Virus record (IMG/VR): IMGVR_UViG_3300025098_000232
Coordinates: 1 to 27,113 of that record
DNA: 27,113 bases
Direction: 5' to 3' (one strand)
Source: a virus
The notes beneath the pieces are model-generated. The model did no database searches and was not told the origin of the DNA. It saw only the letters and a program-made list of their open reading frames with translations. Numbering within the stretch: the stretch's first letter is position 1; every line of letters starts with the position of its first letter. A program made the position numbers and the translations under genes. This document shows, one piece after another, positions 10,755-25,911 of this stretch.

Positions 10755-10881
10755 TGCCCCATTTTGATGCGCCCACCTTGCGACACTTAGCCAAAGCTCC
10801 TGAAGCGTAGGCAGAGGGCCATACACTGTAGCGAGCCTTCACCTTGTGGTAGCAAGCGTCTTTGTTTGTCTTCGCCTTCAT
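10732..10881 (-). CDS. Small conserved phage protein, ACYHKVKARY type (49 aa)
   Basis: A 49-codon gene. The core reads DACYHKVKARYSVWPSAYA and then GALAKCRKVGASKWG. I recognise this C-Y-x-K-V-K-x-R-Y, W-P-S-A-Y-A-S-G-A and C-R-K-x-G pattern from many small phage and giant-virus-like proteins. Its function is unknown to me. Two cysteines (C10 and C33) could bind metal or pair. The start overlaps the previous stop as ATGA, which supports translation. The 3' end overlaps the start of the 10506-10754 gene by 23 bases. Confidence 0.72.
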   Translation of the reverse strand: MKAKTNKDACYHKVKARYSVWPSAYASGALAKCRKVGASKWGNAKSKKD

Positions 10882-11069
10882 GACTTAGGATGGTTTGCGA
10901 GTTTAAACTTGGCCTTGGGTACTGCTCCAGGATGGGGCTTATACGCACCAGCCATAAGGAAGTACCTACCTCTCTCTTCCATCCAGTGATATCCTTTAGG
11001 GGGGTCTACAGACACTGTCTTGCTAGACACCTTGAGCTTCCCTCCCTTGTTGTACTTGACGGTATTCAT
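10878..11069 (-). CDS. Small basic protein with N-terminal KGGK tag (63 aa)
   Basis: A 63-residue basic protein opening MNTVKYNKGGKLKVSS, which contains the KGGK motif shared with several other products in this window. After it comes a compact segment with PPKGYHWMEERGRYFLMAG and a basic, proline-containing end. Start and stop both use ATGA overlaps with the neighbouring genes, a strong sign that this small frame is translated. I recall related proteins beginning with a K-Y-x-x-G-G stretch in marine phages but no function. It may be a minor virion component. Confidence 0.7.
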   Translation of the reverse strand: MNTVKYNKGGKLKVSSKTVSVDPPKGYHWMEERGRYFLMAGAYKPHPGAVPKAKFKLANHPKS

Positions 11070-11248
11070 TTTAATACGAGTTGTTCGAGTTTCTTTTGAT
11101 AGTCCTTAAATGACATCTGACCAGCTCGATACTCTTTAAATAGCAGCGCCTTCTCCTTCTTCATAGAAGATTTAGACTGAGGCCCCTTGTGCTTGCCAAG
11201 GTAATTCAGGAGATGCTTTACTCCCGATGGCTTTTTCTTTGTCTTCAT
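11066..11248 (-). CDS. Small lysine-rich protein (60 aa)
   Basis: A 60-residue, strongly basic, probably helical protein beginning MKTKKKPSGVKHLLNYLGKH and ending with a YQKKLEQLVLK helix. It has no cysteines and no membrane segment. The next gene's start overlaps its stop as ATGA, and only one base separates it from the upstream DUF6321-like gene. The family is not known to me. Its place in a run of five tiny basic genes between portal and capsid genes suggests a packaging or internal-virion role, inferred from context only. Confidence 0.6.
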   Translation of the reverse strand: MKTKKKPSGVKHLLNYLGKHKGPQSKSSMKKEKALLFKEYRAGQMSFKDYQKKLEQLVLK

Positions 11249-19373: not shown

Positions 19374-19388
19374 TTTAATTAAATTTCG

Positions 19389-19462
19389 TACACCTGACAG
19401 GATTCGAACCTGTGACCTACGCATTAGAAGTGCGTTGCTCTATCCAGCTGAGCTACAGGTGC
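19389..19462 (-). tRNA. tRNA-Arg (anticodon TCT)
   Basis: A complete cloverleaf of 74 bases. The acceptor stem is GCACCTG with CAGGTGT, closed by one G-U pair at the end. The D-arm is GCTC/GAGC, the anticodon stem ACGCA/TGCGT, and the loop CTTCTAA gives anticodon TCT. The T-arm is ACAGG-TTCGAAT-CCTGT. The discriminator is A and no CCA is encoded. It would read AGA and AGG codons, which are frequent by eye in the neighbouring genes. Confidence 0.97.
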
Positions 19463-19708: not shown

Positions 19709-20560
19709 TCATACTTTGTTATGGAATACTTTGGAGAAGTAGTTGATCACATCCTTGCTCAAGTTAGGAGTCTTTTTGCTGACATCAGAGACTGGGTTGA
19801 TAGCGTTGTTAGCCGTGTTACCGTCGGTAACATTTGAAGGAGCTTTCTCCTGAAAAGCAGTTTTTTCAAAAGGACAAACCACAATCGTTTTCCCTTTGGT
19901 CCCAAGATACCCGCTCAAGTAGATGTCGTCTACAAAAAAGGCAGACACCTCTGGGAAGTCCTCGTCAACAGAAGAGTAGTCAAATACGTCTTGATCAAAG
20001 TAAGAGGCCCTATATGCTACTGCAGAAGTTCCGTAGAGGCAATCGACACGAGTCAAAGACTCCTCGTCACCACCGTTATAGATGCGCTCTAAGATGCCAT
20101 CGTTCTTAGCGGTGTAGAAAGGGTGGTCCGTGTCGGCCAAGTAGATTCTAGACCCCTTTCTGCAAGCGACCGCACCACATTCGATAGCTCCAGAAGAAAG
20201 CAAGTTTTCAAAGGCGTTTCTCTGGTAGTGCTTGTCATCATCAAAAGTAATAATGATGCTCTCTTTGTCTTTTGACAAGCCAGCCTCCATCTCTCTCTTT
20301 AACACAGGAAACAGCTTCGTGGCTGGGCCGTGGTCTTCTTCGCTGTGCAACAAAGTGATGACACCAGAGTCAGACATAGTCTTGATCTCTTCGTGAATTT
20401 CGTAGTCCTTTTCTTCTCTCATAGAGTGAGAAGGAAGAGCCACCACGATTTCATCAGGCTTAATTGATTGAGCAAGAATGCTCTTGATGGAGAAGTGCAG
20501 GTTGTCCATCCGAGAAGGGATGGTTGATGTGGTCGCAATGACCTTTCTTTTATTGTACAT
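19709..20560 (-). CDS. Glycosyltransferase, GT-A family 2-like (283 aa)
   Basis: I take the ATG at 20560 as the start because the longer frame runs into the tRNA-like RNA. The protein opens with KVIATTSTIPSRMDNL, a nucleotide-binding-type beta strand. It then has DHGPATKL (residues 76-83), a FDDDK motif with the metal-binding DxD type (106-110), and VDDIYLSGYL (210-219). This order is typical of small GT-A fold glycosyltransferases acting on sugars with a nucleotide donor. The substrate is unknown. Possible roles are glycosylation of virion proteins or of host surface glycans to block superinfection. It closes its unit. Confidence 0.75.
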   Translation of the reverse strand: MYNKRKVIATTSTIPSRMDNLHFSIKSILAQSIKPDEIVVALPSHSMREEKDYEIHEEIKTMSDSGVITLLHSEEDHGPATKLFPVLKREMEAGLSKDKESIIITFDDDKHYQRNAFENLLSSGAIECGAVACRKGSRIYLADTDHPFYTAKNDGILERIYNGGDEESLTRVDCLYGTSAVAYRASYFDQDVFDYSSVDEDFPEVSAFFVDDIYLSGYLGTKGKTIVVCPFEKTAFQEKAPSNVTDGNTANNAINPVSDVSKKTPNLSKDVINYFSKVFHNKV

Positions 20561-20578: not shown

Positions 20579-20655
20579 TCCGCGAAGTGGGACTTGAACC
20601 CACATGTAACCAGTTACTCTTTCTACAAGGTATAAGCTTGAGGAGATACTCGCGG
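20579..20655 (-). ncRNA. tRNA-like RNA with canonical acceptor and T-arm but aberrant core
   Basis: A 77-base RNA. The ends form a 7-bp acceptor stem, CCGCGAG with TTCGCGG (one G-U), followed by a discriminator A. The T-arm is perfect: GTGGG, loop TTCAAGT, CCCAC. The 45 bases between do not fold as D-arm plus anticodon arm. Instead I see CAAG-CTTATAC-CTTG, a 4-bp stem with a 7-base loop in which TAT would be at anticodon positions, and a second hairpin GTAA-CTGG-TTAC just before the T-arm. It exactly fills the gap between a small gene and the glycosyltransferase gene. It may be a degenerate tRNA, a D-armless tRNA or a tRNA mimic. Confidence 0.6.
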
Positions 20656-20799
20656 CTAGACCTCGTGTTCTTCGTTCCAGGAGTCCTCCCAGAACCTATA
20701 ATCTGTTTTATTGTATTGCCAAACCACTTGTTTCCAATCACTTAGAGAATCTCTCAGCGAAACCTCCGCTGTAGTCTTTTGCTTCTTCGATTGCTCCAT
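20656..20799 (-). CDS. Small tryptophan-rich protein, overlapping gene (47 aa)
   Basis: A 47-residue frame starting at the ATG at 20799. The second half, DWKQVVWQYNKTDYRFWEDS, has the charged and aromatic composition of a real protein. Outside its overlap with the upstream gene this frame is the only reasonable coding choice. It overlaps the 20738-21028 gene by 62 bases in another frame, and its stop is next to the 5' end of the tRNA-like RNA. The family is not known to me. It may be a false positive. Confidence 0.4.
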   Translation of the reverse strand: MEQSKKQKTTAEVSLRDSLSDWKQVVWQYNKTDYRFWEDSWNEEHEV

Positions 20800-23168: not shown

Positions 23169-23729
23169 TTACTTTGTCCCCGTAATTCTTCGGTACTCCT
23201 GCACCAAGGCTTTGGCCTTTGGAGTTCCTTTGGCTTGCTTTATAGCAGCCTCAAGAGCTTTTCTCTTCTTAGTCATAGCGTTCCTAACCTTGGTTCGCTG
23301 CGACAGGGAGCTTGGGGCTACTCCGCCCTCAGAGTACTTAGGCAATCGGCCACCTTTCTTAGCTAGAACCTTTGGGCCTTCTGAGGCGTTGGCCATGTTC
23401 TTGGCTGCAAGACCCTTTCTAGCCATACCTCCTGCTACGCCAGGAAGGAATCCAGCCATAGTCTGATTTCTTACGGCCTTCTTATAGTCCTTACCTGTAA
23501 GTCCAGCTTCGGATGCCTGTTGCTTCGCGGCCTTTCTTGAAGCGAGCATGCCTACGACTCCACCCATCTGGGAAGCACCCTCAAGCACACCCTTCCCTAC
23601 GGGCTTGGAGAAAAAGCCTCCGCTCTTAAAGACACCTCTGCCCTTAAGGATATCAGCTCTTGTGATCTTACCATCTTTGTTGAGATCGGGGAATTTTCCG
23701 CCCTTCTTGTATTTTTTCTTAGTCTTCAT
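23169..23729 (-). CDS. EF-hand protein with N-terminal KGGK tag (186 aa)
   Basis: A very basic 186-residue protein. It opens KKYKKGGKFPDLNKDGKITR: the KGGK tag (residues 9-12) is followed at once by a canonical EF-hand or dockerin-type calcium loop, D15, N17, D19, G20, I22, T23 and D26. The middle is Gly/Ala-rich with GASQMGGVVGMLASR and FLPGVAGGMARKG, which could be membrane-active or internal. A second KKGGRLPKYSEGG lies near residue 130. I recall the F-P-D-L-x-x-D-G-K-x-T pattern from marine-phage virion proteins. It ends its unit. A structural or injected protein is inferred. Confidence 0.65.
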   Translation of the reverse strand: MKTKKKYKKGGKFPDLNKDGKITRADILKGRGVFKSGGFFSKPVGKGVLEGASQMGGVVGMLASRKAAKQQASEAGLTGKDYKKAVRNQTMAGFLPGVAGGMARKGLAAKNMANASEGPKVLAKKGGRLPKYSEGGVAPSSLSQRTKVRNAMTKKRKALEAAIKQAKGTPKAKALVQEYRRITGTK

Positions 23730-25524: not shown

Positions 25525-25911
25525 TTAGCGACGGAGCTTTCTCTTGGGCTTAATGCCCTTACCGACGTTTCCGCCCTTGCCCTTGGTTCTAACCTTCAGA
25601 CCGCCTGGGTTGCCAGTTTTAGTCATTTCAAAATCACCAACAAAGGTGTTTTTTCTCTTGACTTTCCTGCTTCCAAGACCAGGGTTAGGTACTTCTGCAC
25701 CTTTCTGCATTTCCTTGCCGATGCGGTCATCCATTGCTAACCTGCTGATTCGATCTTTGTTTTTGTTAGACATTGGGGCGCCAGGCACATTGTAGAGCTT
25801 GGACATCTTTCTAGGGGAGGGTGAGGGCTTTTTAGCAGTCTTCTTTTTGCTGTAAGCCATCTTCTTAGGATCGCCCGTCTTCCCTCCTTTCTTGTACTTT
25901 GTTACTTTCAT
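25525..25911 (-). CDS. Highly basic protein with N-terminal KGGK tag (128 aa)
   Basis: A 128-residue, extremely Lys/Arg-rich protein opening MKVTKYKKGGKTGDPKKMAY. The KGGK tag is followed by GDPKK, a five-residue piece also present in the transglycosylase two genes upstream. The rest is low-complexity, with VPGAPMSNKNKDRISRLAMD and a Gly/Lys tail (KVRTKGKGGNVGKG). No fold is obvious and it is probably disordered. High charge suggests DNA contact inside the capsid or an injected protein; this is inferred. It lies two bases after the 25914-26375 gene. Confidence 0.65.
   Translation of the reverse strand: MKVTKYKKGGKTGDPKKMAYSKKKTAKKPSPSPRKMSKLYNVPGAPMSNKNKDRISRLAMDDRIGKEMQKGAEVPNPGLGSRKVKRKNTFVGDFEMTKTGNPGGLKVRTKGKGGNVGKGIKPKRKLRR

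Follow-up and report, generated by a model that had tools for sequence, protein, structure and literature searches.

To our knowledge, the order of the tRNA arms has been treated as universal, and the known exceptions lose or resize arms while the strand order is kept. Standard strand order is kept in tRNA-Sec, tRNA-Pyl and allo-tRNAs, which resemble the RNAs described here as natural tRNAs with arms of non-standard dimensions. D-armless metazoan tRNAs are mitochondrial (PMC7609411, PMC8450103), and permuted, split and intron-containing tRNA genes are described as being processed to restore the cloverleaf (PMC4033280). The class analysed here shares with D-armless mitochondrial tRNAs such as tRNA-Ser(GCU) a usual D-arm site without a D-arm, but the arm is lost in those tRNAs, whereas its D-stem and D-loop are relocated in the rewired class. 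With permuted, split and intron-containing genes it shares a non-standard segment order in the gene, but here the mature RNA itself would keep that other order. Its likeness to canonical class I tRNA (RF00005) extends to a 7-bp acceptor stem, a T-arm with a UUCRANY loop, a 7-nt anticodon loop with U33, a D-loop of the form A-R-n-y-GG-n-n-A, 15/48 covariation, A20 (Arg), A73 (Ile) and a length of ~77 nt; it differs in that the anticodon arm precedes the D-loop and the 5' strand of the D-stem, the D-stem encloses the anticodon arm and a GAAA junction replaces the variable loop. Judged by identity elements and context the class is tRNA, yet its strand order fails the cloverleaf definition. Full-text searches of published, largely open-access papers yielded no account of it, and within that literature it is so far unnamed. 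A review of non-canonical tRNAs (PMC7609411) contains none of 'phage', 'permut' or 'topolog', and the tRNAscan-SE 2.0 paper (PMC8450103) does not contain 'phage'.

The window, the whole 27,113-nt stretch analysed, is a virus record of 27 kb. Its large terminase and portal, and a virion structural protein, have matches in phage families; phages of Flavobacterium, Cellulophaga and Maribacter carry relatives of the terminase. On the minus strand of the window, positions 20579-20655 (5' end at 20655) encode a tRNA-like RNA of 77 nt that has an acceptor arm, an anticodon arm and a T-arm but lacks a D-arm where one is usually found. This RNA is very probably a tRNA-Ile(UAU) belonging to a class in which the strands of the core are joined in another order. 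From 5' to 3' it reads CCGCGAG-UAUCUCC-UCAAG-CUUAUAC-CUUGU-AGAAA-GAG-UAACUGGUUA-CAU-GUGGG-UUCAAGU-CCCAC-UUCGCGG-A. The acceptor stem joins 20649-20655 to 20580-20586 by seven pairs, one of them G-U on the minus strand, and all seven covary across 86 sequences. U8, A9 and a further U follow at 20646-20648 (A9 is invariant in 220 members, and U8 in the 148 tabulated). The next strand, CUC at 20643-20645, corresponds to canonical positions 23-25 and pairs with GAG at 20617-20619, the equivalent of positions 10-12, with covariation. Between these strands lie the anticodon arm (20625-20641; four pairs plus U.U), with the anticodon UAU at 20632-20634, which would read AUA (Ile), and the junction A-GAAA (20620-20624), which for most members was a requirement of the scan pattern. 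Adjoining the second D-stem strand on its 3' side are a U and the D-loop AACUGGUUA (20607-20616; A14 A15 .. G18 G19 U20 .. A21), in which U20 is at 20609. CAU (20604-20606) follows, its U48 being expected from matched-pattern scans to make a Levitt-like pair with A15, and then the T-arm (20587-20603), which, like the 3' acceptor strand, is evident in the sequence and in the 86-sequence structure count. The discriminator A73 is at 20579, with CAA next and no encoded CCA. An earlier note made from the sequence had described the 7-bp acceptor stem, the five-pair T-arm, the 45-nt core and the CAAG/CUUG stem presenting UAU, all of which held up, the last as a real anticodon arm. Its statement that the RNA fills the intergenic gap exactly was wrong: ~18 nt separate it from the likely start codon at 20560 and ~82 nt from the upstream gene. 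An inverted repeat (GTTCTGGG/CCTGGAAC, minus strand) lies directly upstream, at 20672-20694.

Standard searches recognise this RNA poorly. Rfam RF00005 scored it at 27.1 bits, under the gathering score of 29, with four bases covering 15 model positions of the D-arm region. In the window, the only report at the gathering score and the sole ARAGORN call is an ordinary tRNA-Arg(UCU) on the same strand (19388-19462; 73.5 bits in Rfam), and 20579-20655 is uncalled. A canonical cloverleaf for the window RNA was rejected on both grounds. Model R1 gave 88.2 bits, the window copy being one of its training sequences; with R1, variant members mostly scored 35-56 bits and ordinary tRNAs at most ~29, with rough E-values. 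One relative just passed the RF00005 gathering score (30.3 bits). Because the D-arm strands are joined in a different order, standard tRNA finders miss nearly all members of the class: ARAGORN had no overlapping call for 216 of 220.

BLAST found 63-nt homologues (79-81% identity) in a Bacteroides crAss-like phage, where the homologue is unannotated and lies within a tRNA cluster, and in Streptomyces phages. Matches to T4-like tRNA-Leu genes in the first BLAST covered the T-arm and 3' end only (~30 nt) and were set aside. A pattern built from the homologues hit more than 119 IMG/VR loci among the matches listed, nearly all with the complete RNA, and further scans enlarged the set to take in Arg-type and G15/C48 members. 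In all, pattern scans of viral contigs, named phages and a few bacterial-genome contigs yielded at least 220 distinct, structure-checked members; these are related, so the counts overstate independence. The scan patterns fixed GAAAG, TA(A/G), GG and ACA(T/C), and the invariance of GAAAG, TAR, GG and ACAY is therefore no evidence. Relaxed scans with GAAA or ACAY optional recovered ~12 extra members with other junctions, all Ile or Arg and with D-stems that include ATG/CAT, CGG/CCG and ACC/GGT. Members with such different junctions and D-stems indicate that the GAAA form targeted by the scans represents part of the class.

The common order is acceptor strand, UAU, three bases, anticodon arm, GAAA, three complementary bases, D-loop (U-A-R-n-y-GG-n-n-A), CAY and T-arm. 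All 148 members first parsed have a 7-nt linker without a D-arm between acceptor and anticodon stem, nearly always UAU-N-N-C-C/G, and so depart from cloverleaf order, while the 7-bp acceptor stem, 5-bp T-stem and 7-nt anticodon loop with U33 are those of tRNA; the base of the anticodon stem is often U.U. RNAalifold, given 86 members and no structure, returned the same architecture without a cloverleaf D-arm. When the named structure was counted over these 86, 94.2% of cells were paired; shuffles reached 59.8% and slid controls no more than 46.2%. Cells changed on both sides numbered 637, compared with 175 in shuffles. In the D-stem every cell with letters was paired and two of the three pairs changed on both sides; combinations comprise CTC/GAG, CCC/GGG, ACC/GGT, CGC/GCG, TCC/GGA and AAC/GTT, with GC/GC and CC/GG in a shorter form of two pairs.

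These counts bear on the fold proposed in the earlier note, a tRNA in which the D-arm is missing and the variable region forms an additional GUAA/UUAC hairpin. The window copy can form this hairpin, and its single-sequence minimum-energy structure (z = -1.4 against shuffles) contains it and lacks the D-stem. Across the 86 members, however, cells of the hairpin are paired almost as often in shuffles (63.7%) as in the real sequences (64.0%), and a single double change is seen, whereas the competing D-stem is 100% paired; GTAA/TTAC does not covary and is not conserved. The note was right that no D-arm stands at the cloverleaf site, but the RNA is not D-armless: its D-stem strands, which covary, stand on either side of the anticodon arm, and its D-loop, complete with GG and the position-20 identity base, lies elsewhere. 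We consider the D-armless fold highly improbable.

The re-threaded core is best seen by mapping it onto an ordinary tRNA, whose chain runs through 8-9, D-stem 10-13, D-loop 14-21, D-stem 22-25, 26, anticodon arm, variable loop, 48 and T-arm. The rewired chain would run 8-9, 22-25, 26, anticodon arm, GAAA, 10-13, D-loop 14-21, CA, 48 and T-arm, so that the partners of the D-stem strands and of the D-loop are retained and the order of joining is changed. The D-stem, closing around the base of the anticodon arm, would form with it one continuous stacked hairpin, and the D-loop would still be placed where docking on the T-loop is possible. A non-standard segment order is also what a permuted or intron-bearing gene processed to a normal cloverleaf would present, but permuted tRNA genes start inside the tRNA and require splicing (PMC4033280), and in all members the acceptor strands are at the two outer ends. 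With these outer strands, the length of a mature tRNA and the constant 7-nt linker, there is no spare sequence to remove, and we give this explanation even less credence than the D-armless fold.

Comparison of the class, position by position, with the ordinary tRNAs of the same loci is consistent with the re-threaded core. In the 220 verified members the 15/48 combination is A-U in 149, G-C in 56, A-C in 10 and G-U in 5; in 859 ordinary tRNAs of member loci it is G-C in 461, A-U in 315, A-C in 44 and G-U in 11, so G-C and A-U lead in both sets. Scans of viral contigs with otherwise identical patterns found G-C at 79 loci, G-U at 12 and A-C at 11. By sequence, the base immediately 5' of the T-stem plays the part of position 48. 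G10-C25, the commonest such pair in ordinary tRNAs, has its G-C equivalent in 220/220 members, the G side being fixed by the pattern.

Anticodons are confined to two isotypes: UAU (90), GAU (33) and CAU (10) for Ile, and ACG, UCG, UCU and CCU (87 together) for Arg. When anticodons with G or T in the middle were scanned for, none of the 120 loci listed proved valid. Position 20 follows isotype: all 87 Arg members have A, and U is found in 132 of the 133 Ile members, including the window RNA (Fisher P ~1e-61, for members that are not independent); ordinary tRNA-Arg genes of member loci have A20 in 162/165. For E. coli ArgRS, A20 is the main determinant, together with C35 and A/G73 (PMC9976931). 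Position 73 is A in all Ile members and G, A, T or C in Arg members. The identity elements (anticodon, 20 and 73) are consistent with isotype, although some Arg members with U73 or C73 break the E. coli rule. With these three elements masked, nearest neighbours agree in isotype in 71 of 86 cases, and core identity is 0.79 between isotypes and 0.81 and 0.83 within them; this incomplete separation and the near-equal identities suggest that the Ile and Arg forms share one core.

The earlier note had also raised the possibility of a decaying gene, a reading that could draw on the sub-threshold general tRNA score and on the annotation of similar members elsewhere as tRNA-OTHER or tRNA-Undet. About 26 contigs encode a close homologue of the window terminase (72-83% identity), and close relatives of the window RNA are 86-100% identical to it. 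In one related contig (L103) the 77-mer is identical (77/77), while the terminase (TerL) is 78% identical and the 150-nt flanks are 0.77 identical upstream and 0.54, the background level, downstream; an identical RNA beside such a flank is not chance. Over 46 close RNA homologues the mean RNA identity is 91%, against 0.62 and 0.59 for the 150-nt flanks and 0.57 for shuffled sequence. The RNA is conserved among relatives sharing neighbouring genes while its flanks are near background, which excludes decay; no relative with a normal tRNA at this site was seen, and the relaxed constraint and broken pairs of a tRNA pseudogene were not found. One covarying architecture in 220 distinct members likewise leaves a decaying gene, or a chance tRNA-end fragment, with next to no probability.

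Placement and codon use point to a role in decoding. For 149 members the sequence covers 1 kb to either side; 123 of them have one or more ordinary tRNAs in that range, and always at least one of these shares the member's strand. Rewired members lie inside phage and bacterial tRNA arrays, on the same strand, but the array tRNAs found by ARAGORN are ordinary, whereas the rewired ones are mostly missed. At Arg loci the rewired anticodon duplicates an ordinary one of the same isotype in 2/42 cases (12.2 expected, P = 5e-5), and at Ile loci in 4/18 (8.3 expected, P = 0.02), so rewired members would usually supply an anticodon missing from the adjacent ordinary tRNAs; complementarity by whole isotype is weak (Ile P = 0.07, Arg P = 0.31), and the anticodon-level test is clear. 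Of the Ile codons in the window 26% are AUA, and of the Arg codons 67% are AGA or AGG. The Ile(UAU) and Arg(UCU) tRNAs would serve these codons, which supports decoding without proving it.

An alternative role is that of a tRNA-like decoy or regulator that would imitate the acceptor, the T-arm and the anticodon arm so as to occupy a synthetase, RNase P, the CCA enzyme or a host tRNA nuclease, and has no use in translation. In its favour, so unusual a core might hinder translation, most Ile members do not encode CCA, and published work treats phage-encoded tRNAs together with anticodon nucleases. A decoy, however, has no need for agreement among anticodon, position 20 and position 73, nor for anticodons that complement the adjacent ordinary tRNA set, and 66 of 87 Arg members encode CCA, which suggests that their 3' end is charged. 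We regard a decoy as unlikely, and less likely than a decoding tRNA. The best reading of the comparative data is that class members would be working tRNAs with a rewired core. It draws on the helices, 15/48 covariation, isotype-linked position 20, Ile/Arg-only anticodons and placement among tRNA genes, which the alignments demonstrate at the level of sequence; from these we infer that the window RNA adopts an L-shaped fold, is charged by host IleRS and decodes AUA. More tentatively, the phage RNAs may be charged and decode while the rewired D-arm conceals them from host enzymes whose destruction or inactivation of tRNAs depends on reading the normal D-arm or elbow; the restriction to Ile and Arg would then reflect a continued ability of IleRS and ArgRS to recognise the class.

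By sequence, the class is widespread and mostly encoded by phages. Named phages with members include Kehishuvirus tikkala, Streptomyces Stanwilliamsviridae, Microbacterium Zooman and bajarodcaudo virus 1, with variant members in Rhodococcus Trina and E. coli phi92-like phages and, by BLAST, a member in Microbacterium phage A3Wally. Phages phi92, Antha and EmilieFrey carry CGGGGUG-UAU-CUC-A-CCUGA-CUUCUAA-UCAGG-CGUUAACC-GAG-UAAUUGGAG-UAU-T-arm-CACCCCG, an Arg(UCU) member with A20 and an encoded CCA, and the PATM member departs from it only beside the 3' end. These phi92-like loci (L551 895-973 and L552-L554) are unannotated or labelled tRNA-OTHER or tRNA-Undet. In Streptomyces phage EGole (L004 295-371) the rewired tRNA is annotated as tRNA-Leu (UUA), and it is unannotated in other Streptomyces phage records; in Rhodococcus phage Trina (L556 394-472) an annotated thioredoxin frame (439-744) begins within it. 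Matches in Aeromonas phage 1233 (L559) and psageK4 (L557) look like ordinary-order tRNAs and were rejected.

Outside named phages, a loose pattern gave 119 listed matches in genome contigs, of which valid members occur in only seven contigs and the rest fail the structure check. Contigs with matches include phage-like ones, such as one with ribonucleotide reductase, thymidylate synthase and HNH genes (G002:C8) and one with a phage lysozyme gene (L436). Another, from a Saprospiraceae MAG (G001:C37; L401 1-8000, L568 and L569), is chromosomal: among its genes for citrate synthase, Mfd, FtsH and SprA lies an array of 20 ordinary tRNAs, none of them Ile, plus two rewired tRNA-Ile (UAU and GAU), which indicates that a cellular chromosome has acquired members of the class. 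Under stricter filtering, and with 12 candidates per genome scored, no other member was found in 394 sampled genomes of the phylum of this MAG (G001) or 397 of that of G002, and plasmids scanned with an Arg-type query gave no match.

If this reading is true, the L-shape and synthetase recognition would rest on spatial contacts rather than on cloverleaf order, and phage and metagenome annotations would systematically miss Ile and Arg tRNAs. Charging, structure and decoding are testable in E. coli, because phi92-like phages that grow on K-12 carry an Arg(UCU) member.

We also note members that keep the strand order with differing junctions and D-stems, two each in L114 (2956-3032 and 5066-5139) and L501 (537-613 and 2084-2163) and one each in L033 (2864-2942), L259 (14212-14288) and L486 (9511-9585). 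In the window itself, short Lys/Gly-rich frames with recurring KKGGK-like starts lie at 11066-11248, 10878-11069, 23169-23729 and 25525-25911.
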